DNA of 64,000 nt from Candidatus Dormiibacterota bacterium (GTDB lineage Bacteria > Chloroflexota > Dormibacteria > Aeolococcales > Bog-877): positions 1-64,000 of the forward strand of contig DAHVDN010000012.1 in NCBI GenBank assembly GCA_027313505.1. The letters are read 5' to 3'. The position numbers and the translations under genes are program-made. The notes under the pieces are model-generated. The model had not been told where the DNA came from and ran no database searches. It was given only the letters and a program-made list of their open reading frames with translations. This document shows, piece by piece, positions 51,995-63,348 of the stretch (its first letter is position 1; each line of letters begins with the position of its first letter).

Positions 51995-52502
51995 GGGCTT
52001 TTGGCCCTCCCTGGTATGTCGGTGCGGCCCCGCGCTCTGGCACCGACCTTTTGAGCTCCCATTTGGGGCGTGGTACTTGGAATACGAGCGGACTCCCTCG
52101 TCGGATCACTGGAGTCCGGGCCGTCACGTACCCGTTGGCATTTATGAGCGCCGGTCGCTGGGCCGGGTTCCGGCCCTTACCGACCCTTACCGACCTTGGG
52201 CGACGGCGATTGCCTGAGCCCCCGAGCCCGCACGGCGGGCATCCCGATCGGGGAGTACAGGCAGCCGAGGCGCCTTAGTCCTCTGTCCTAGACGCCCACT
52301 GAATGAGGCCGGCCTGAATGAGTTCTTGTTGCCCGGGAAACCACCAAGACCCAACTCCCGGTGGCACCACCCCGTCTTGCAAGTCGTCGTCCGGGTGAGC
52401 TGCTTCCACTAGGGGATGCGGCCGTCCGGTCCAGCATCGCGCGCACCTCGGCCCGCCTGGAAGAGGGCTCCGAGTAAGTTGGGCTCGCTGCTCGGAGCCG
52501 CT
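51995..52502. other. Intergenic region, no gene seen
   Basis: About 500 bp upstream of the secreted-protein gene and downstream of leuD. Short frames lack ribosome sites and recognisable domains. A tandem direct repeat CCCTTACCGA occurs twice at 52174-52193. The promoter of the secreted-protein gene must lie here; no convincing hexamers were found. No terminator for the leu operon is obvious. Confidence 0.5.
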
Positions 52503-53138
52503 TCAGCGAACCTCAGGTGTGGGACCAAATGAAGAGGTCACTGGGAATAGGGGAGACCGACGCTGTTCGTGGGCAGTTATATCCGCTGATCTCTTCATGG
52601 CGGTCGCGATCGGGTCTAGACCATCTAGCAGGCACTCCCGCCAGAACTCCTCGATCTCAAAACCCGCGATCCTTCCGCTTTCATCGCGCACCTCAGCAGC
52701 CTGCAGGTCGATGGTGAGTTCGTAGCCATCCCCTTGGCGGGTCCGGTCTCCGAGGCGGCTCACCACGGACGCCGGGAGGGTGACCGGCAGGAGGCCGTTT
52801 TGGTAGGCGTTGGTGGCAAATATGTCAGCGAACGATGGAGCGATTACCGCCCTGAACCCATAGCCCAGCAGCGCCCAGGCGGCATGTTCGCGGGATGAGC
52901 CGCAGCCGAAATTCTGCCCGGTGATGAGGATGCTCGCCTCCCTGTAGGCGCTGGCGTTGAGCTCGAAGTCGCCCCGGGGCGCCCCGGCTTCGTCGTAGCG
53001 CCAGGCGAAGAAGCAGGAGTCTCCGTAGCCGTCCCGCTCGGTGCGCTTCAGGAACTGCTTGGGGATGATCTGGTCGGTGTCGACATCGTCCCGGCTGAGC
53101 GTGGCGCAGAGGCCGTGGTGGAGTTTGAATGCTTCCAA
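52503..53138 (-). CDS. leuD: 3-isopropylmalate dehydratase, small subunit
   Basis: The 211-aa product is the swivelling subunit of isopropylmalate isomerase. It shows DDVDTDQIIPKQFLKR, the NFGCGSSREHAAWALLGYGFRAVIAPSFADIFATNAYQNGLLP block that closes the active site over LeuC's 4Fe-4S cluster, and the final FEIEEFWRECLLDGLDPI. The C-terminus carries an additional 25 residues beyond the core. TTG 53138 follows GGAGA and lies 13 bp after leuC. It is the last gene of the operon. Confidence 0.96.
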   Translation of the reverse strand: MEAFKLHHGLCATLSRDDVDTDQIIPKQFLKRTERDGYGDSCFFAWRYDEAGAPRGDFELNASAYREASILITGQNFGCGSSREHAAWALLGYGFRAVIAPSFADIFATNAYQNGLLPVTLPASVVSRLGDRTRQGDGYELTIDLQAAEVRDESGRIAGFEIEEFWRECLLDGLDPIATAMKRSADITAHEQRRSPLFPVTSSFGPTPEVR

Positions 53139-53151
53139 GGGGGTCTCCGAA

Positions 53152-54606
53152 TCAGCTTGCTGTGGCGGAGGCGAGCTGCCTCACGTCGACAAAGTGGCCG
53201 TGCAGCGCAGCCGCCGCGGCCATCGCTGGACTCACCAGGTGGGTCCGCCCTCCCGCGCCTTGTCGGCCCTCGAAGTTGCGGTTGGAGGTGGATGCGCAAC
53301 GCTCTCCAGGAAGGAGGATGTCCGGGTTCATGCCCAGGCACATGGAGCACCCTGCCTCCAGCCACTCGAATCCGGCGTCCCGGAACACTCGATCCAGCCC
53401 CTCAGCCTCCGCCGCCCGCTTGACGGCCCCCGACCCCGGCACCACCATCGCGCGCACCCCGGAGTGGACCCGGTTGCCGGCGGCGATGGCGGCCGCCGCC
53501 CGAAGGTCCTCCAATCTACTGTTGGTACAGGAGCCGATGAACACCCGATCGATGCTTATGTCCTCGATCGCGGTCCCCTCTGACAGCCCCATGTAATCCA
53601 GAGCCCGCGCGGTTGCGTCCCTCGTGGGTTGATCAGGACATTCGTCGAGGTGGGGGACCCTGCCGGTGATCGCCGCTACCATGGCGGGGTTGGTTCCCCA
53701 GGTCACGAACGGTGCCAGCTCCGCTGCTTGAATAGACTCTCTACGATCGAAGGTGGCCCCGGGATCAGTGGCGAAGCCGAGCCAGCGCTCCGCGGCCCTG
53801 TCGAACTCAGGGCCCGTCGGCACCGCTGGCCGGCCCTCCAAATACCGAACCGTTGTCTCATCAGGGGAGATCATCCCTGCCCGGGCCCCTGCTTCGATCG
53901 TCATGTTGCACAAGGTCATTCGTCCTTCCATGGAGAGATTCCTGACCACGCTCCCCGTGTACTCCACGATTGACCCTCGTCCGCCTGCCACGCCCAGCCG
54001 GCCGATCACACCCAGCGCCACATCCTTGGCAGTGACCCCCTTGGGCAGTTCTCCGTCGATGGCGACCTCCATGGTGGGAGAGGGGGCCTGCCATAGGCAC
54101 TGGGTGGCCAGAACTTGCTCCACCTCAGAGGTTCCGATACCGAAGGCCAGCGCCCCGAACGCGCCATGGGTTGCGGTGTGAGAGTCCCCACAGACGACCG
54201 TCATCCCAGGCTGGGTCAGCCCCAGTTCCGGACCGATCACATGGACTATCCCCTGGCGGGCATGGTGGAGGTCGAAGAGCGGGACTCCGGCGGCCGCACA
54301 GTTCTCGCTGAGCTGGCGCAGCTGCTCGAGACCGATGGGATCCGGTGTCGGCCTGCTTCGTTCCCAGGTGGGTACCAGGTGGTCCATGACCGCCATGGTC
54401 AGGTCCGGCCTGCGGACCTGACGACCGGTGGCGCGCAACCCGGCGAAGGCCTGAGGCGAGGTGACCTCGTGCACCAGGTGTAGGTCCACGTACAAGAGGA
54501 TTCGCTCCGATGGATTGCCGCTGACTAGGTGAGAGTTCCAGATCTTCTGATACGCGGTGCGGGGAGCCTCACCTGCCGCCGCTGATGACGTCGTTTGAAA
54601 CGCGAT
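53152..54606 (-). CDS. leuC: 3-isopropylmalate dehydratase, large subunit (apparent ATC start)
   Basis: The aconitase-family subunit holds the 4Fe-4S cluster through Cys in IGSCTNSR and GCSMCLGMN. The core [44 protein letters not shown] and [33 protein letters not shown] matches LeuC throughout. No ATG, GTG or TTG lies in frame between GTG 54675, which is deep inside cimA, and the conserved N-terminal [18 protein letters not shown] sits 8 nt before an in-frame ATC at 54604-54606, 17 nt after the cimA stop. ATC is therefore the likely start codon; the alternative is a longer protein from GTG 54675 without a ribosome site. Confidence 0.93.
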
Positions 54607-54621
54607 GGCCTCGTCCTCCTT
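54604..54621 (-). promoter_or_regulatory. Ribosome binding site in front of the leuC ATC start
   Basis: On the minus strand AAGGAGG (about 54621-54615) is followed by 8 nt (ACGAGGCC) and the in-frame codon ATC (54606-54604). The Shine-Dalgarno element lies just after the cimA stop. A conventional gene junction is present except that the start codon differs from ATG in the third base. Confidence 0.65.
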
Positions 54622-54623
54622 GC

Positions 54624-56255
54624 TCAGGCGCTTGTGGAAAGCTGATTCGGTGCCGCGGCATGGCGGGTCGCCCACTCGTAGCTGTCGACCAGTGCCATCG
54701 CCGATGCCCGCAGGATGTTGCTGGAGCAGCCGACGGTAGTCCACGTGCGATCCCCGTCACTGGAGTCGATTCCCACCCGAACCGTGGCGGCTGTGCCTCG
54801 GTCCCCATCGATCACCCGGACCCTGTAGTCCACGAGGCTCACCTCAGAGAGAAAGGGGAAGTGCGGGACCAGGGCACGACGAATGGCGCCGTCCAGAGCC
54901 TCCACCGGGCCAGTTCCCTCGGCGGCGGTGTGCACCAGCACTCCCGTAACCCTCACCTTGACGCTGGCCTGGACCCCCGTCACCGTCTCTGGAGCGTCAC
55001 CAAGCTGCTCGTGGGCGACCACCAGCGTCTCACACAGTTCGAAGGGGGGGACATCCTCAGGCAGGCTTCGAGCGACCAGGAGCTCGAACGAGGCGTCCGC
55101 GTCCTCGAACGCCCAACCGGCGACCTCCAGCCTCTTGAGCTGTTCGACCACCGCTTGCCCCGCATCTCGGTCGAGCTGGTCCAGCCCTAGGTCTTTGAGC
55201 TTGGCCGCAATGTTGCTCCGCCCACTCTGGTCGGAAACCACCGTCCGCATCCGGTTCCCAACCACCTCCGGTTCAATGTGCTGGTATGCCCTCGAGTCCC
55301 GGGAGACTCCCTGGGCGTGAAGTCCGGCCTTATGCAGGAAGGCGGCAGATCCCAGGTACGGTCGCTGGGGATCCGGTGGCCGATTCAGCAGCGAGTCGAA
55401 CAGTTGAGACACGGACACCAGGTCACCAAGCTGCTCGGGAGTGAGCACGTCCATACCCATCTTGAGTTGCAGGTTCGCCGCCACTATGAGCAGATCGGCA
55501 TTGCCGCATCGTTCTCCGGTGCCGTTCAGGGTTCCCTGGACCATCCGCGCGCCGGCGCGGACCGCTGCCAGTGAAGCCGCAGTGGCTGTGCCGGTGTCGT
55601 TATGGCAGTGGATTCCGACGCAATCACCCACCAACTCCCGAACCATGGCGGTGGCGCGCGCTATCTCCTCAGGCAGCCGCCCACCGTTGGTGTCACAAAG
55701 GACGATCCATTCCGCGCCGGCCCTTCGAGCGGTCTCCAACACCTTCAGCGAGTATTCCGGGTCGGCGGCGTGACCATCGAAAAAGTGCTCGGCGTCGAAG
55801 ACCACCTCGCGGCCCTCTCCCGCCGAGGCCTCGATTGAGTCAGCCACCATCCGAAGATTCTCCAAAGCGGTGGTTCTGAGGACGGTCTCAACCTGCCACC
55901 TGGAGGTCTTGCCGACCAGCGTTACCACCGGAGTTCCCGCCTCCAGGGTGGCCGTCAAAACCGGGTCGTCGCGAGCGTCCGAATTAGCACGGCAGGTGGC
56001 GCCAAAGGCCGCCAGCCGCGAGTGCTTCAGGGGACGGAGCTGCAGCGCCTCGAAGACCCCGGTGTCTCGGGGGTTCGCTCCCGGCCACCCGGCCTCAATG
56101 TAAGGGATACCCAGCAGGTCGACCCGACGGGCTATGCGCAGCTTCTGCTCAATGCTGAGCTGCATACCAAACCCCTGCATCCCGTCACGCAGGGTGGTGT
56201 CGTAGAGCACGACGCCGTCCCCGTTAGCCTTCCTGGAGGCAGGGGATGCGCTCAT
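54624..56255 (-). CDS. cimA: Citramalate synthase
   Basis: This enzyme condenses pyruvate and acetyl-CoA to (R)-citramalate, opening a threonine-independent route to 2-oxobutyrate and isoleucine. The 543-aa protein begins [18 protein letters not shown], carries the DmpG/HMGL-type [11 protein letters not shown] and [15 protein letters not shown] motifs, and has a C-terminal LeuA_dimer-like regulatory domain (about residues 400-530). Citramalate-synthase type is judged from [10 protein letters not shown] and the neighbour leu genes; a homologous isopropylmalate synthase is separately present. It overlaps leuB by 4 nt (ATGA). Confidence 0.94.
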
Positions 56256-57337
56256 GCCGTCACCAGGGTGGAGAGCTTCTCGATGACCGCTGAGGTCACC
56301 TCTCCGGTGCCGGCGGACCCTCCCATGTCGGGGGTGAGCGGTCCGTCAGCGATCACCGCCCCGACTGCTCCCTCCACCGCCGCCGCGAGATCTTCGCGGA
56401 GCAGGGTAAGGCGCAGCAACATGGCAATTGTCGAGATCGCACCCAAAGGGTTGGCAATGCCTTGGCCCGCGATGTCGGGAGCCGATCCATGCACCGGCTC
56501 ATAGAGCCAGGGGCCGGCCCCGCCCCCGCTGGCGGACGGGAGCACGCCCAAAGTTCCGACCAGGGCCGCTGCCTCGTCGGTCAAAATGTCCCCCATCAGG
56601 TTCTCAGTGACGACCACATCAAACTGACGAGGTTCGAGCAGCAGCCGCAGCGCGAAGCTGTCGACCAGGCAGTGGTCAAGTTTCACATCGGTGTACTCGC
56701 GTCCCACTTCCGTCAGCACCTCTCGCCAGAGGCCGGAGGTGGCCAGGACGTTCGCCTTATCGACCGAGCTCAGGTGATGTCCCCTCTGCCGCGCCAACCT
56801 GAATGCCACATGGGCCACCCGTTGGATCTCCGCCTCTCCGTACTCGATGGTATCCACCCCTCGTCGGTTGGGCGCCATTCCACCCACCCCGCGGGGTCGA
56901 CCGAAGTACGCTCCCCCGGTCAGCTCCCTGACAAATAGGATGTCGGTATCTCGGAGCCGTTCATCGCGGAGCGGACTGTGGCGCTCGCCACCACGCCAGA
57001 CCTTCACCGGCCGCAGGTTGGCGAATACCCCAAGGGCGCTTCGGAGACGCAGCAGCCCAGCCTCGGGGCGCACTTCGGAAAGGTCCCAGCGCGGCCCTCC
57101 CACAGCTCCCAAGAGCACGGCGTCAGCCGTCATGGCAGCATCCAAACTCGACCGGGGCAGGGGGTCCCCCTCGATATCCAGAGCCAGACCGCCGATGGGG
57201 TGCTCGGCAACTTCCAGCCCAACCGGGGACTGTCGGAGCACCGCAGTCAGGACCAGAAGTGCTGCGGAGGTTACCTCCGGACCCACGCCATCTCCCGGCA
57301 GAGTGACCAACCTCAAGGTTTCGGTGGTAGTGGTCAA
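56252..57337 (-). CDS. leuB: 3-isopropylmalate dehydrogenase
   Basis: This NAD-dependent oxidative decarboxylase acts in leucine synthesis, and also on citramalate-derived intermediates in the citramalate pathway. The 361-aa protein begins with LPGDGVGPEVTSAAL, has the substrate-binding region RSALGVFANLRPVKVW and FVRELTGGAYFGRPRG, and the metal-binding ENLMGDILTDEAAALVGTLGVLPSAS. The NAD specificity stretch is standard. TTG 57337 overlaps leuA's TGA stop. The gene sits in the middle of the tightly packed operon. Confidence 0.96.
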   Translation of the reverse strand: MTTTTETLRLVTLPGDGVGPEVTSAALLVLTAVLRQSPVGLEVAEHPIGGLALDIEGDPLPRSSLDAAMTADAVLLGAVGGPRWDLSEVRPEAGLLRLRSALGVFANLRPVKVWRGGERHSPLRDERLRDTDILFVRELTGGAYFGRPRGVGGMAPNRRGVDTIEYGEAEIQRVAHVAFRLARQRGHHLSSVDKANVLATSGLWREVLTEVGREYTDVKLDHCLVDSFALRLLLEPRQFDVVVTENLMGDILTDEAAALVGTLGVLPSASGGGAGPWLYEPVHGSAPDIAGQGIANPLGAISTIAMLLRLTLLREDLAAAVEGAVGAVIADGPLTPDMGGSAGTGEVTSAVIEKLSTLVTA

Positions 57338-58575
57338 GTTGAGACCGAACCAAGCGGTGGCTGATGAACGGTGAGCTCACCGACTATTTGCAGGAGCGCT
57401 TCGTCCTCGACCTCCTTGGATGAGTCCGCTACCTCCAGGAACTTTTGCCACAGCGCCTGCATCTGCTCATCGGGGATCCGGATTCCGATGCGATCCAGTC
57501 GATGCACCAGGGCATGGCGCCCCGACCGCGCTGTCAGGACGATCTGCGATTCGCCGGCTCCGACATCCTCTGCCGACATGATTTCGTAGGTGGAGCGTTC
57601 GCGGAGGACTCCGTGCTGATGCACGCCAGAGGCGTGGGCGAAGGCATTGGTGCCCACCACCGGCTTGTTCGGAGGAACCACCATCCCGGTGCGGGACGAC
57701 ACCAGCCGGCTGGTAGGACCGAGCTCGGTGGCGCGGAGGTTGTCCCTCAGCCTCAGGGTCGGACGGCGGACCCTGAGGGCCATCACCACCTCCTCGATGG
57801 CGGCGTTGCCGGCCCGTTCTCCGATCCCGTTTATGCAGCCCTCCACCCGCCGTGCGCCGGCGGCGATTCCCGCCAAGGAGTTGGCGGTCGCCAGCCCCAG
57901 GTCATCGTGACAGTGGACGCTGACCAGGACCCTGTCCATTCCTGGAACCTCCCGGCGGACCGTTGCCACCAGCTCTGCCATCTCCGCGGGAAGACAGTAG
58001 CCGGTGGTGTCGGGCAGGTTGATCACGGAAGCGCCTGCCCGTACCGCCACATCGACCACGGAACAGAGGTATTCGAGGTCCGCGCGTCCGGCATCCTCAG
58101 GGGAGAACTGAACTACTGGACAGAGCTCTCTGGCGTAGGCAACCGCCTCCGCCGTACGGGCGAGCACGGTGGCGCGGTCGAGACCCAGCTTCTTGACTAT
58201 GTGGACATCGGACACCCCGATGAAGACATGGATCAGTGGTTTCTGAGCTTCGCGGACCGCTTCAAAAACTGAGTCGATATCGCCTCTGCGGGCACGTGCC
58301 AGACCGGTCACCGCCGGGCCTTCCACCTCTCTGGCTATCTGCCGAACCGCCTCGAAATCACCCGGTGACGAGGCGGGGAAACCCGCTTCGATGACGTCGA
58401 CCCCGAGCCGGGCAAGCTGGTGGGCAATCTCCAACTTGTCCGAGGGATGAAGGGTGGCTCCCGGTGACTGTTCCCCGTCCCGCAGGGTGGTGTCAAAGAA
58501 CTCCACCAGCTCTGAACGGGACTCTACGACCGATTCCTGTCCGCCGGATGGGGCGCCCCCGCCGGTGGCGGTCAT
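57334..58575 (-). CDS. leuA: 2-isopropylmalate synthase, short form lacking the regulatory domain
   Basis: The first committed enzyme of leucine synthesis. The 413-aa protein has [17 protein letters not shown], the [16 protein letters not shown] metal site, [19 protein letters not shown] and the later [20 protein letters not shown]. It ends shortly after the second accessory helix, about 100 residues before the C-terminal LeuA_dimer domain that gives leucine feedback in typical 500-plus-aa enzymes. It may be leucine-insensitive, or it may be a different R-citrate-type synthase such as homocitrate synthase; the neighbours favour LeuA. ATGA overlap with ilvC. Confidence 0.93.
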
Positions 58576-59660
58576 GACGCAACCTCGGATACCTGGCGCT
58601 CGGGATCCTGCTCGACGGTTGGCCTGGTAGAGTCCGCTCTCTCGGCCTCGGGCACGGCCGCCACCGGGCGAATCCAGGACATCTGCGCCCGCAGCCGCTG
58701 GCCCACCTCCTCGATGGGATGCGCCCTGGCGCTGGCGCGCTGCTCCAGGAATTCACCCCTGCCAGATCGGTTCTCGTCGATCCAGTTCTCAGCAAAGCTG
58801 CCATCCTGAATGCGGCTCAGGATCCCTCTCATCTGCTCCCTGACGTGCTCGTCGACGACCACCGGCCCGCTGGTGTAGTCACCGTACTCAGCGGTGTCGC
58901 TGACGCTGTACCTCATGAGCGACAGCCCCCCTTGATAGATGAGGTCGACGATGAGCTTCAGCTCATGGAGGCACTCGAAATAGGCAACCTCGGGCTGATA
59001 GCCGGCCTCTGTAAGCGTTTCAAAAGCCGCGGTGATCAGGGCGGTGACTCCGCCGCACAGGACCGCCTGCTCGCCGAACAGGTCGGTCTCGGTCTCCTCT
59101 CGGAAGGTCGTCTCCAGGACGCCCGCTTTGGTGCTTCCGAGTCCGCTGGCATAGGCCAGGGCCCGCTCTCGAGCGTGACCGGTGGCATCCTGATGGATCG
59201 CGAGCAGCGCTGGGCACCCAATCTCTTCCTTGAAGCAGCTGCGCACCATGTGCCCGGGGGCCTTGGGCGCAACCATTGCCACATCGCACCCCCTGGGAGG
59301 CACGACGGTGCCGAAGTGGATGGAGAAGCCGTGCGCGAAGAGCAGCAGACAACCGGGCTTGAGCGCCTCGGTGAGGCCGGAGGCGAAGAGGGCTGCCTGG
59401 TCGTGATCGGGAATGAGCACCATCACAACGTCTGCGTCCCGGACGGCGTCGAGGGGATCTAGGACCGCGAAGCCATCGGCCACCGCCTGGGCACGACTTC
59501 CGCTGCCCGGTCTCAATCCCACCTTCACCGCGTACCCGCTATCGCGGAGGTTCTGGGCGTGGGCGTGGCCCTGGCTGCCGTAGCCGAGGATGGTGACCTT
59601 GGCCCCGGCCAGCGCTGCCGGGTCCGCGTCGGAGTCGTAGTACATTTTCATTTCGGTCAT
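58572..59660 (-). CDS. ilvC: Ketol-acid reductoisomerase (class I)
   Basis: This enzyme isomerises and reduces acetolactate or acetohydroxybutyrate to the dihydroxy acids of valine and isoleucine synthesis. The 362-aa protein carries the NADPH motif [15 protein letters not shown] and KARI motifs [23 protein letters not shown] and [20 protein letters not shown] (metal-ligand Glu). It has the class I length with an extra C-terminal tail. ATG 59660 overlaps the ilvN stop (ATGA), so GTG 59666 is less likely. Confidence 0.96.
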
Positions 59661-60256
59661 CTCCACTCTTGGGGGCTATTGCGGTTCTGGTCCGCGGACA
59701 AGGGGTCGCCGGACCCGAGCCCGATCGGTCGGCTGACCATCCAGTCGACCAGCGGAAGTTGACGAAGGCGCTCCAGGGCGGCCTCCACCACCTGCGGGGT
59801 TCCCGAAAGGGCTGCCAAAAGTGACCTCTCGTCGCGGCGCACCACCTCCGCCCCGCAGCTCCCGAGGAGGTCTATGGCCGACTGGCCCACCTCGTCCGCC
59901 CGGATCTCGACCAGGGCGGTCACCCACTCCAAGGGGTGTGAGCCGGTGAGATCCTCGACACTGACAACGTCGATGAGCTTGGCCAGCTGCTTGACCACCT
60001 GATCCGCCGGTTGCGACCCGTGCTCCACCTGCAACCAGAGCGAGAGGGTACCGGGATCCGAGTTCTGGCCGACGGCGCAGCTTAGCAGGCGCAATCCTCG
60101 TCGTCCCAGGCAGTTGGTCACCCGCTGAAGCACACCGGATCGGTCCTCGACCCGGACCCTCACCAGGCGCATGAAGGGGTCGCGGAGCGCCCGCCTCAGC
60201 TCGCGGTTGTCGGAGCGATCAGAGGTCGACCCGGGATCCGGCGAAGTTGGTGTCAT
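59657..60256 (-). CDS. ilvN: Acetolactate synthase small (regulatory) subunit
   Basis: The 199-aa protein has an N-terminal ACT domain ([35 protein letters not shown]) and a C-terminal domain ([31 protein letters not shown]...). IlvN normally activates IlvB and confers valine feedback. Longer N-terminal extension than usual. ATG 60256 overlaps the ilvB stop, so translation is coupled. It provides the usual partner for the large subunit. Confidence 0.92.
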
Positions 60257-61980
60257 GGGCACTCCACGAAGTCGGCCAGACCCTTTCCGAAGGGCACAAT
60301 TGGATAGATGTTGGCTTCGGGGTCGATGCGGCAGTCGACCAGTGCGGGCCCGGGATATTCGATGGCCTCTATAAGAGCCACCTCAACCTCCGCGAGCGTT
60401 CTGGCCACTCGACCGAAGCATCCGAAGGCGCGGGCCAGCAGTTCGAAATCTGGGATCACGGTGTGGTCAACCTGGGAGCGCACTCCGCCGTAGAAGTCGT
60501 CCTGAAACTGCCGCACCATCCCCAGTTGGCCGTTGTTGAGGATGACCACCTTGACCGGCAGCTCCGCCTCGATCGCGGTGGCCATCTCCTGGAAGGTCAT
60601 CACAAACCCACCCTCGCCGCATATGGCGAAGATCCGCTGGTCAGGGCGGGCGGCCTGGGCGCCAAGAGCCGCAGGAAGGGCGAAGCCCATCGTTCCAGCA
60701 CCCCCAGAGTTGAGGAAGAGCCCCGGGGCATCCCCGGTCCAGGAGGTGGCCGCCCACATCTGGTTCAGCCCGACGTCAGCCACGACCACGTCCTCGGGCC
60801 GGCGGTGGCGGTAGCAGGCCTCCAAGACCTCCTGAGGCTGCAGCTGACCGTTGCTCGGGTAGCGGAGCGGGTGGCGTTGCCGCCAGCCGTCGACCGCGGC
60901 GGTCCAGGGGGGTCTGGCCTTCTGTGTCACCTGCTCAAGCAGGGACTCCATCACCTCGCGTGCGTCCCCAGCGATCTGGCAGTCGGCCGCAACCGTCTTG
61001 CCGAGCTCTGCGGGATCGATGTTGACGTGCACGATGTGTTCCGCCATTGGTGCGAACAGGTCCATCCGGCATGTCACACGGTCGTCCGCCCTCATCCCCA
61101 CCATGAGGAGGCAGTCGCATTCGCTGACGGCCTTGTTGCAGTAGCCAGTCCCCATGAACCCGACCAGGCCAACTGACAGGGGATGGGTGGTGGGGAACAC
61201 CCCAGTCCCGAGGAGGGTGGTCCCCACTGGGGCGTCACAGGCCGTGGCCAGCTGGATCAGTGCCGTCTCAGCTCCGGCGATCGCCACGCCCCGGCCGGCG
61301 AGGATCATCGGACGCTCCGCTCGGGACAGGAAGCCCGCTGCCTGGGTCAAGAGCGCTCGGTCCGGAGATTCCGGAGCCCGGTGGGGGCGAAGGCGAGCGA
61401 TCTTGGACTCCGACCCTTCAACGATCTGCTGCTGCACGTCCTTGGGGATGTCGATCAAAACGGCGCCGGGGCGGCCGGTTCGGGCGACGTGGAAGGCCTC
61501 CCGGACAACGGCTGGCAGATCCCGAGCGTCATGAACCTGGTAGCTGTGCTTGGTCACTGAGAGGGTGGAGCCGATCACGTCCGACTCCTGAAACGCATCG
61601 GTGCCGATCGTGGCCGTGGCCACCTGTCCGGTGATCGCGACAACTGGAACCGAGTCGAAGTGGGCGGTGGCAAGCCCGGTGATCAGGTTGAGGGCGCCGG
61701 GTCCGGAGGTGGCGAGACACACTCCGACCCGACCTGAGGTGCGCGCATAGCCATCCGCCATGTGAGCTGCCCCCTGTTCGTGGCGCACCAGGACGTGGCG
61801 AATTGGAGACTTCGGAAGGTGCTGGTAGATCGGCAGGTTTGCTCCCCCTGGCAGGCCAAAGATCACCTCCACGCCTTCACGCGCCAGCGATTCGAGCAGG
61901 ACCTCAGCCCCGCAAAGCTGGGCGGCTGCCGGCTGCTCCTCTTGGTCGTCGTAGGGGAGGTCGGCCAGGGATGCACTCAT
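60253..61980 (-). CDS. ilvB: Acetolactate synthase large subunit
   Basis: This TPP- and FAD-dependent enzyme condenses two pyruvates, or pyruvate and 2-oxobutyrate. The 575-aa product has the catalytic Glu region VRHEQGAAHMADGYAR, the DIPKDVQQ domain junction, the FAD-binding middle domain and the C-terminal TPP motif. The Mg/TPP motif reads CGEGGFVMTFQEMATA...LNN, so GDG has become GEG, a conservative change that may still bind Mg. It lies 10 bp after the small ORF at 61991 and is overlapped by ilvN. Confidence 0.95.
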   Translation of the reverse strand: MSASLADLPYDDQEEQPAAAQLCGAEVLLESLAREGVEVIFGLPGGANLPIYQHLPKSPIRHVLVRHEQGAAHMADGYARTSGRVGVCLATSGPGALNLITGLATAHFDSVPVVAITGQVATATIGTDAFQESDVIGSTLSVTKHSYQVHDARDLPAVVREAFHVARTGRPGAVLIDIPKDVQQQIVEGSESKIARLRPHRAPESPDRALLTQAAGFLSRAERPMILAGRGVAIAGAETALIQLATACDAPVGTTLLGTGVFPTTHPLSVGLVGFMGTGYCNKAVSECDCLLMVGMRADDRVTCRMDLFAPMAEHIVHVNIDPAELGKTVAADCQIAGDAREVMESLLEQVTQKARPPWTAAVDGWRQRHPLRYPSNGQLQPQEVLEACYRHRRPEDVVVADVGLNQMWAATSWTGDAPGLFLNSGGAGTMGFALPAALGAQAARPDQRIFAICGEGGFVMTFQEMATAIEAELPVKVVILNNGQLGMVRQFQDDFYGGVRSQVDHTVIPDFELLARAFGCFGRVARTLAEVEVALIEAIEYPGPALVDCRIDPEANIYPIVPFGKGLADFVECP

Positions 61981-61990
61981 GGTCTATCCG

Positions 61991-62185
61991 TCAGTCCGCG
62001 CCGTACGCGCGGCCAATCGCTGAGGTGATGGCGGCATCTGCTGCGATCTGGCGGATCGGTCGGGGCGCAGCCGACGCCGTGTGCTGGCGCACCCAGTTCC
62101 GGGCAGCCTCATCCAGCTCGATGTCGGTCGGATAGCGTCCGGATCCACTGACTTCGATCGAGTCGGGTCTCATCGAGTCGGACAT
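61991..62185 (-). CDS. 64-aa protein between the ilvB attenuator and ilvB
   Basis: The 64-residue product (MSDSMRPDSIEVSGSGRYPT...) is followed by ilvB after 10 bp. ATG 62185 has AGGAGA with 7 nt spacing, so translation is likely. The sequence predicts a short helix (LDEAARNWVRQHT), no signal peptide, no cysteine and no branched-chain codon run, so it is not the attenuator peptide. I do not recognise the family. It may be a small subunit, chaperone or translational coupler for IlvB. Confidence 0.7.
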   Translation of the reverse strand: MSDSMRPDSIEVSGSGRYPTDIELDEAARNWVRQHTASAAPRPIRQIAADAAITSAIGRAYGAD

Positions 62186-62250
62186 CTCAGGTCTCCTGTT
62201 GCTTCTGGCGGTTCAGATGTTGGCGGATGCGACGGTTGGGTTACGGGTAC

Positions 62251-62283
62251 AAAAAAAGCCCCCCGGGTTAACCCGGGGGGCTT
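62251..62283 (-). terminator. Intrinsic terminator of the ilv-leu attenuator
   Basis: On the minus strand AAGCCCCCCGGG (62283-62272) and CCCGGGGGGCTT (62267-62256) form a perfect 12-bp stem around TTAA, followed by a run of U to 62251 (TTTTTTT at 62257-62251). It lies 69 bp upstream of the 64-aa ORF and is in the untranslated leader, so it is an attenuator terminator rather than an operon end. Confidence 0.95.
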
Positions 62284-62367
62284 GCAGCTTCGTCAACGCG
62301 CAGACGTTAGCTGACCAGCCCACCTGTAATTAGGACTACTACAACCAGTTGGCTGTCGGCGGTCAGC
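62275..62367 (-). promoter_or_regulatory. Competing attenuator stems (1:2, 2:3, 3:4)
   Basis: Segment 1, GCTGACC (62367-62361), pairs perfectly with segment 2, GGTCAGC (62316-62310). A longer segment 2, GGTGGGCTGGTCAGC (62324-62310), can instead pair with segment 3, GCTGCAAGCCCCCC (62288-62275), with one or two mismatches and a bulge. That would prevent segment 3 from forming the 3:4 terminator. Segment 1 lies within the leader peptide's reading frame before its Val run, and segment 2 at its end, as in classical ribosome-mediated attenuators. Confidence 0.75.
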
Positions 62368-62390
62368 AGGACACGAGTCAGCAAGTTCAA
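62307..62390 (-). CDS. ilvB leader peptide (branched-chain amino acid attenuator)
   Basis: This 27-codon frame starts at TTG 62390, a few bases after the predicted transcription start, and ends with TAA at 62307. It reads LNLLTRVLL..., then QLVVVVLITGG LVS. It contains 4 consecutive Val codons, 7 or 8 Leu codons counting the start and one Ile codon. This composition is diagnostic of a leader peptide that lets the ribosome stall when charged branched-chain tRNAs are scarce. Absence of a ribosome site implies leaderless initiation. Segments 1 and 2 of the attenuator lie inside it. Confidence 0.85.
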   Translation of the reverse strand: MNLLTRVLLTADSQLVVVVLITGGLVS

Positions 62391-62401
62391 GATGGGTCGT
62401 A

Positions 62402-62430
62402 TTTATACCAGCCCCGCCAAGCTCTGTCAA
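62402..62430 (-). promoter_or_regulatory. Promoter of the ilv-leu operon
   Basis: On the minus strand TTGACA (62430-62425) is followed after 17 bp by TATAAA (62407-62402), preceded by TGG (extended -10 type TGnTATAAA). Transcription should start at about 62395. The leader peptide TTG is only 5 bp further, so the message is nearly leaderless. Confidence 0.9.
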
Positions 62431-62509
62431 GTTGAGTCGCCCCTGGGTAGTGGGTCAGGCTGAGCGGGGAGAGCGGCAGGGACTCCTACCTCGACATCCA
62501 ACCCAACGA

Positions 62510-63031
62510 TTAGCCCATGTTTGTCGGGTCGCTGTCGATCGGCGATCCCGTCTCCAGCAGCGTTTTAAGGCTGCTGAGGATCCAACTCCAACCGCCACCC
62601 GCGCCCTGGTCCGCCATCCCGCCTGACATCAAGACTGCCAGGGTCGGCGCATTTTCGAACTCGTGAATGACCGTCAGCTTGGTGACGCCGCCCCTGCCTT
62701 CCGAGATCTCGTAGGTAAGACGGGTAAACCCTTCCGCTGCCATCGCTTCGTCCATCACCATCCGAAAAGTCTGGACCAGCCTCCGGGGTGGGTCGGCGTC
62801 GAGCACTGCGCCGTCAACGCCTATCTCCGGTGCTCCTGCCTGCCGCATTGCCGCGCTGGTCAGTCCTCGGTAAGCACCACCGGGATGTAGGTCGTAGTCG
62901 GCCTTGCCACCGTATCCGTATTGCTCGGTCCACTCAGGCTTGGTGATGGCATCCCAAATGGCCTCCGGTGTGGCTTTGATGTACACGCTGTAGACCTGAG
63001 TGATCGCCGACGCGCTGCTTGTCGAGTTCAT
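62510..63031 (-). CDS. SRPBCC / AHSA1-type protein
   Basis: The 173-aa protein matches activator-of-Hsp90 ATPase homologue-1-like (AHSA1/SRPBCC) domains: VYSVYIKATPEAIWDAITKPEWTEQYGYGG, then LVQTFRMV and the terminal helix GGWSWILSSLKTLLETG. These proteins bind hydrophobic ligands and frequently occur next to an ArsR-type repressor, as here. ATG 63031 overlaps the ArsR gene's stop by 4 nt, and AGGAGA precedes it. The ligand is unknown. Confidence 0.88.
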   Translation of the reverse strand: MNSTSSASAITQVYSVYIKATPEAIWDAITKPEWTEQYGYGGKADYDLHPGGAYRGLTSAAMRQAGAPEIGVDGAVLDADPPRRLVQTFRMVMDEAMAAEGFTRLTYEISEGRGGVTKLTVIHEFENAPTLAVLMSGGMADQGAGGGWSWILSSLKTLLETGSPIDSDPTNMG

Positions 63032-63348
63032 CCTGTCTCCTCTAGGTCGTGCTTGAGATTCGCTAACGCCGATGCCTGGCGCTCTGTGTACTTGTCGATC
63101 CATCGGTCGTGGATAAGCCGGATTGGTACCGGGTTGAGGAAGTGCAAGGTCCGGCGCCCCGACCGCCGCCTGACCACGAGCCCGGCTTCCTCCAAAACAC
63201 GCACGTGCTTCATGACGCCGAATCGAGTCATGGCAAGCTCGGACTCGAGCTCACGGAGACTGCGCCCGTCGCGCGCAAAAAGCTGGTCCAGCAAGCCGCG
63301 CCGGGTGGGGTCGGCAAGCGCCTTGAACACGTCATCGTCGGCAGCCAC
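63028..63348 (-). CDS. ArsR-family winged-helix transcriptional regulator
   Basis: The 106-aa protein shows VFKALADPTRRGLLDQLFARDGRSLRELESELAMTRFGVMKHVRVLEEAGLVVRRRSGRRTLHFLNPVPI, a standard ArsR/SmtB HTH without the metal-binding ELCVCD motif. It therefore probably responds to an organic ligand, perhaps with its coupled SRPBCC partner. The start is GTG 63348. A TATTAT -10 overlapping a 15-bp palindrome ends only 7 nt from the GTG, so the transcript is likely leaderless and autoregulated. Confidence 0.92.
   Translation of the reverse strand: MAADDDVFKALADPTRRGLLDQLFARDGRSLRELESELAMTRFGVMKHVRVLEEAGLVVRRRSGRRTLHFLNPVPIRLIHDRWIDKYTERQASALANLKHDLEETG

Follow-up and report, generated by a model that had tools for sequence, protein, structure and literature searches.

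A predicted branched-chain amino acid attenuator with a (nearly) leaderless leader peptide ahead of an ilv-leu operon in Dormibacteria (Chloroflexota)

The region ahead of an ilv-leu operon, on the minus strand of a 64,000-nucleotide stretch (the window) of a Dormibacteria draft genome (3.18 Mb; no 16S found in the draft), carries a promoter, a short open reading frame (ORF) with sensor codons and three alternative stems, which are conserved in relatives along with the order of the downstream genes. On sequence and comparative evidence this leader is very likely a ribosome-mediated transcription attenuator for branched-chain amino acids (BCAA), and the operon is probably expressed only when a ribosome stalls on the Val/Leu/Ile-rich leader peptide. 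It is well supported that this is ilvB attenuation of a known kind in a further bacterial class; leaderless translation and multivalent leaders of the types already known account for most of the features that had seemed unusual.

Results

A near-perfect sigma-70 promoter, a 27-codon leader peptide containing QLVVVVLI, two mutually exclusive stems (1:2 and 2:3) and a 12-bp terminator with seven U residues had been claimed in a first-pass annotation of this DNA, and all four were found (Table 1).

Table 1. Features of the leader and its operon (positions in the window)
Feature	Position	Strand	Details
sigma-70-type promoter TTGACA-17-TATAAA	62402..62430	-	-35 TTGACA 62430-62425, 17-nt spacer, -10 TATAAA 62407-62402
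Leader ORF LNLLTRVLLTADSQLVVVVLITGGLVS	62307..62390	-	TTG at 62390, 27 codons, TAA 62309-62307; start 11 nt past -10
Sensor codons CAA CTG GTT GTA GTA GTC CTA ATT (QLVVVVLI)	62328..62351	-	codon conservation in family
Stem 1:2 (protector / pause hairpin)	62310..62367	-	inner hairpin 62356-62341; -25.8 kcal/mol
Stem 2:3 (antiterminator), last leader codons with terminator 5' arm	62275..62324	-	-24.6 kcal/mol, z -2.7
GGUGGGCU, start of segment 2	62324-62317	-	CCCCCC at 62280-62275 in terminator 5' arm
Stem 3:4, intrinsic terminator and U-run	62251..62283	-	hairpin 62283-62256, 12 bp, 4-nt loop; T run 62257-62251
64-aa ORF, no assigned function	61991..62185	-	AGGAG ahead of ATG; between leader and ilvB
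ilvB, acetolactate synthase large subunit	60253..61980	-	TIGR00118 above cutoff
ilvN, acetolactate synthase small subunit	59657..60262	-	TIGR00119 above cutoff
ilvC, ketol-acid reductoisomerase	58572..59666	-	TIGR00465 above cutoff
leuA, 2-isopropylmalate synthase without LeuA allosteric domain	57334..58575	-	NF002086 above cutoff; PF08502 absent
leuB, 3-isopropylmalate dehydrogenase	56252..57337	-	TIGR00169 above cutoff
cimA, citramalate synthase	54624..56255	-	TIGR00977 above cutoff
leuC (mechanical ORF)	53152..54744	-	TIGR00170 above cutoff
leuD, 3-isopropylmalate dehydratase small subunit	52503..53138	-	TIGR00171 above cutoff

Ahead of ilvB, 14/14 family members with usable sequence (the window included; a fifteenth lies on a split contig) had the same leader parts, ordered and spaced alike. 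The promoter was found in every one of these, with a TTGAC box, a spacer of 17 nt (18 in one) and a TATA-like -10, and the leader start codon (TTG, n=12; GTG, n=2) was located 9-11 nt past the -10 hexamer throughout. With an RNA start predicted about 7 nt after the -10, the untranslated 5' RNA would be only 2-5 nt long, so translation would have to be (nearly) leaderless, which would account for the absence of a ribosome site at the TTG. A point against this reading is that UUG is a weak start codon on leaderless mRNA. The TTG without a ribosome site had been listed as an oddity; it is indeed present, but a leaderless transcript is predicted for the relatives too and is known from C. glutamicum ilvBNC (PMC11857589). 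A consensus promoter pattern gave no match in 52300-62600, and this pattern was also blind to the leader's own promoter because the -10 of the latter ends in A.

A 27-codon frame is possible in all 14 family leaders (in one, L011, an in-frame TTG further upstream would give 30 codons), and in the window the stop codon TAA lies 52 nt ahead of the terminator U-run. The ORF, which is rich in codons for the products of the pathway, has a family core of CTA-GTA-CTC-CTA-ATT, with GTA and ATT kept in 14/14 members and CTA in 10/14 at each of two positions; one relative (L008) has a poor sensor core, LALVRPIAGG. The kept codons are rare in the operon, where GTA accounts for 3.8% of Val, CTA for 3.5% of Leu and ATT for 13% of Ile, and they fall in mostly unpaired columns, as predicted for sensing via tRNA charging. 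With all three frames counted, 25 of 5000 leader shuffles contained a run of 7 of 8 Val/Leu/Ile codons with a stop after it. That one leader should sense three amino acids had been considered unusual; codons for all three are present, but joint sensing of Val, Leu and Ile is classical for ilv leaders, and multi-amino-acid leaders are known.

The whole leader was predicted to fold at -62.6 kcal/mol (z -4.0), with none of 200 shuffles as low, and the terminator hairpin alone at -27.5 kcal/mol (z -3.7). This intrinsic terminator, between the leader ORF and the first gene, was the strongest terminator-like site in 52300-62600, the one other pattern of this type there being weak and within cimA. 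Segment 2 (from 62324) overlaps the last six leader codons and has either segment 1 or the terminator 5' arm as its partner, each of the two stems excluding the other; the antiterminator hence occupies the terminator 5' arm and overlaps the ORF.

Conservation of the Val run and compensatory pairs in relatives had been proposed as support for attenuation, and both were observed: the core of the peptide is kept, codons included, in the 14 family members, and changes on both sides were found in both alternative stems. In stem 1:2, 6 of 20 pairs had changed on both sides, 85.7% of cells were paired (compared to 28-54% when slid) and 19 cells had changed on both sides compared to 8.6 in shuffles (0/500 reached this value), while the number of covarying pairs was not unusual in the shuffle control (208/500). 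Five pairs of stem 2:3 had changes on both sides, the covariation score being matched in 8/500 shuffles; compensatory changes are fewer here than in 1:2, since the G-C block of this stem is almost invariant. In 14/14 members the leader tail paired better with the terminator arm than shuffled tails did (z -2.3 to -6.6), while stem 2:3 of the window itself has one mismatch and, with a few extra flanking bases, a z of -1.4, which is not extreme.

With the ribosome masked on the core codons and the terminator 3' arm not yet made, the antiterminator reached -24.9 kcal/mol, compared to -4.8 with the ribosome at the stop codon. Wherever the ribosome was placed in the window, the full terminator exceeded the antiterminator in stability, so the choice would have to be kinetic and fall while the RNA is being transcribed, as it does in classical attenuators. 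In the mechanism that we propose, RNA polymerase would initiate a few nucleotides before the TTG and the (nearly) leaderless RNA would be loaded with a ribosome at its 5' end. When Val, Leu and Ile tRNAs are charged the ribosome would reach the stop and cover segment 2, allowing 3:4 to form and transcription to terminate. When charging is low it would stop short of segment 2, at the Leu-Val-Val-Val-Val-Leu-Ile codons immediately before it, and segment 2 would remain free to pair with the terminator 5' arm before the 3' arm exists, and polymerase would read on into smORF-ilvBNC-leuAB-cimA-leuCD. If the leader is not translated, stem 1:2 would sequester segment 2, making termination the default.

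The transcription unit had been described as an eight-gene ilv-leu operon. The protein families confirmed ilvBNC-leuAB-cimA-leuCD, but the unit comprises nine genes, as a conserved 64-aa ORF sits between the leader and ilvB. This ORF had no match in Pfam, NCBIfam or PDB; a relative of ~62 aa occupies the same place in 14/18 family genomes (source included), and in most members of a related order-level family (f2) a different small ORF with a Shine-Dalgarno sequence is found there. Adjacent genes overlap by a few bases from ilvB through cimA; the leuC family match begins at residue 61, so the real start of leuC is probably near 54570. Control of cimA and leuCD by the leader had also been noted as unusual, and these genes do belong to the same long unit, but the gene order is conserved in the family up to contig ends. 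This was established by a tblastn survey in which leuA of one genome (G003) and cimA of another (G007) were missed and leuC coordinates indicate position only. The order in f2 is ilvBNC-leuA-leuCD-leuB-cimA.

IlvB proteins of the source class form a separate branch; those of same-phylum genomes mostly had named Dehalococcoidia and Anaerolineae as their nearest matches, which points to the phylum Chloroflexota. Leader ORFs rich in BCAA codons and lacking a Shine-Dalgarno sequence (for example MTYAAVLVLLLGLLLIRGGASRLQAGSVRR and MARPAGLLVLLLGLLGLIGIRTGARAN) also precede ilvB in two further families of the class, in 14/17 and 30/31 usable genes, and are almost always accompanied by a terminator. 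No comparable leader was found before ilvB in six genomes outside the class; the same test identified a BCAA-rich ORF in one of the six, with a Shine-Dalgarno sequence and without a terminator. A stricter automatic finder (6-of-8 BCAA and terminator) returned 28/31, 13/18, 8/14 and 0/6, and scored nothing in reverse complements or in three shuffles per upstream region; the 6-of-8 filter loses 6/14 family members, mostly ones with a core of the ALVLLI type.

A covariance model of the leader (R1) identified five further loci in the family: L197, L198, L199, L200 and L201 (around 1421-1780). Four of these are followed by an N-terminal part of gltB, the gene for the large subunit of glutamate synthase, as is L198 judging by its downstream ORF, and a search for gltB itself gave a sixth such leader (L227). 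Each of the six has a TTGAC box, a start codon 7-10 nt past the expected -10, an ORF of 25-28 codons ending GG-x-V-T/S and an antiterminator formed from the ORF tail and the terminator arm; their peptides contain neither a BCAA run nor an evident shared sensor. When R1 was run over 201 genomes of the phylum, those hits outside the family that were examined (E 1e-8 to 1e-5) were ordinary gene ends with terminators, so weak R1 hits alone prove nothing, and the gltB leaders were retained only because they have the promoter, the distance to the start, the tail motif and the gene context in common. The source genome yielded no gltB match and no convincing second leader copy with R1. Tentatively, and at somewhat less than even weight, the leader may be a copy of a modular leaderless attenuator; within the family, the tail, antiterminator and terminator of this module would have been duplicated to gltB, with the sensor codons replaced there so as to read a non-BCAA signal.

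Discussion

The six gltB leaders bear on another account of the switch, in which readthrough would report not BCAA supply but general translation or access to the start site, since segment 2 could be freed by any slow ribosome. That they share the tail, antiterminator and terminator in the absence of a BCAA run speaks for this account; before ilvB, however, Val/Leu/Ile codons, the rare ones among them, are kept codon-for-codon in the family, and BCAA runs persist throughout the class, leaving it improbable. It is less probable still that a constitutive promoter and a partial terminator simply yield a short RNA with an untranslated or incidental ORF. Such an arrangement could be read from the missing Shine-Dalgarno sequence, the TTG start and the very strong terminator, but conservation of the 27-codon frame, the start position, the codons and the alternative pairing in relatives speaks against it.

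We also considered that the leader might be a ligand riboswitch, a T-box or a protein-bound element (a ppGpp riboswitch or LEU element, for instance), as ppGpp riboswitches are possible at ilvB genes elsewhere (PMC10272879). No Rfam family reached its gathering score on the leader or on the loci of ten relatives, however, and we regard this explanation as very improbable. Rfam leader families (His_leader, Phe_leader and others) likewise fell short of their gathering cut-offs on the leader, and permissive thresholds assigned no family to it, the weak sub-threshold matches lying mainly on the terminator hairpin.

BCAA attenuation, the favoured reading, has well-known precedents. In enterobacterial ilvGMEDA and leuABCD, stalling at Val/Leu/Ile codons picks the antiterminator over the terminator, and several amino acids per leader are possible; the differences are that those leaders start from a Shine-Dalgarno sequence and that in the window one leader precedes both ilv and leu genes. 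The C. glutamicum ilvBNC leader and the ilvB-II motif (PMC11857589, PMC10272879) are similar in having a leaderless BCAA-rich ORF, anti-antiterminator, antiterminator and terminator before ilvB, and in C. glutamicum, where the leader mRNA is leaderless, mutations were used to test both the terminator and the antiterminator (PMC11857589). That leader belongs to another phylum and has another sequence, with an ATG-initiated 15-residue peptide (MTIIRLVVVTARRLP) and a three-gene operon, in contrast to the 27 codons and TTG of the window. M. tuberculosis ilvB1NC (PMC13236596) is also alike, with a short uORF whose regulatory codons (LVVI) include GUA and an antiterminator that is blocked when a ribosome sits on the stop codon, but differs in its 166-nt leader, three-gene operon and sequence. 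GUA has been named as a regulatory codon in both the M. tuberculosis (PMC13236596) and C. glutamicum (PMC11857589) leaders. By analogy the leader of the window appears to match the C. glutamicum, ilvB-II and M. tuberculosis leaders in logic, while the sequences differ. Candidate actinobacterial ilvB leaders (PMC1262725) similarly combine a short Ile/Val/Leu-rich ORF with a terminator before ilvB; for that of S. coelicolor, codon changes were without effect and the mechanism was left open (PMC1262725).

A limited and incomplete search of the literature on attenuators and leader peptides in Chloroflexi did not find this system described. The attenuation logic of ilvB, tested by others in Corynebacterium and Mycobacterium, would extend to a class of uncultured Chloroflexota, which offers many natural variants for comparing stems, start codon and sensor codons. 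Clear predictions as to which tRNAs are sensed come from the rare, almost invariant GUA/CUA/AUU codons, and clear predictions on ribosome loading without a ribosome site from the leaderless UUG/GUG/AUG starts.

Two further observations concern the surroundings of the leader and the operon itself. Upstream of the promoter, on the same strand, an ArsR-type regulator (NF033788) and a ~197-aa ORF with no NCBIfam match (62510-63348) end ~80 nt ahead of it. Judging by its domain content, LeuA of the window may have lost leucine feedback; PF08502 was also absent from LeuA of two other family members and of the one f4 genome examined, but is retained in two LeuA proteins of f2.
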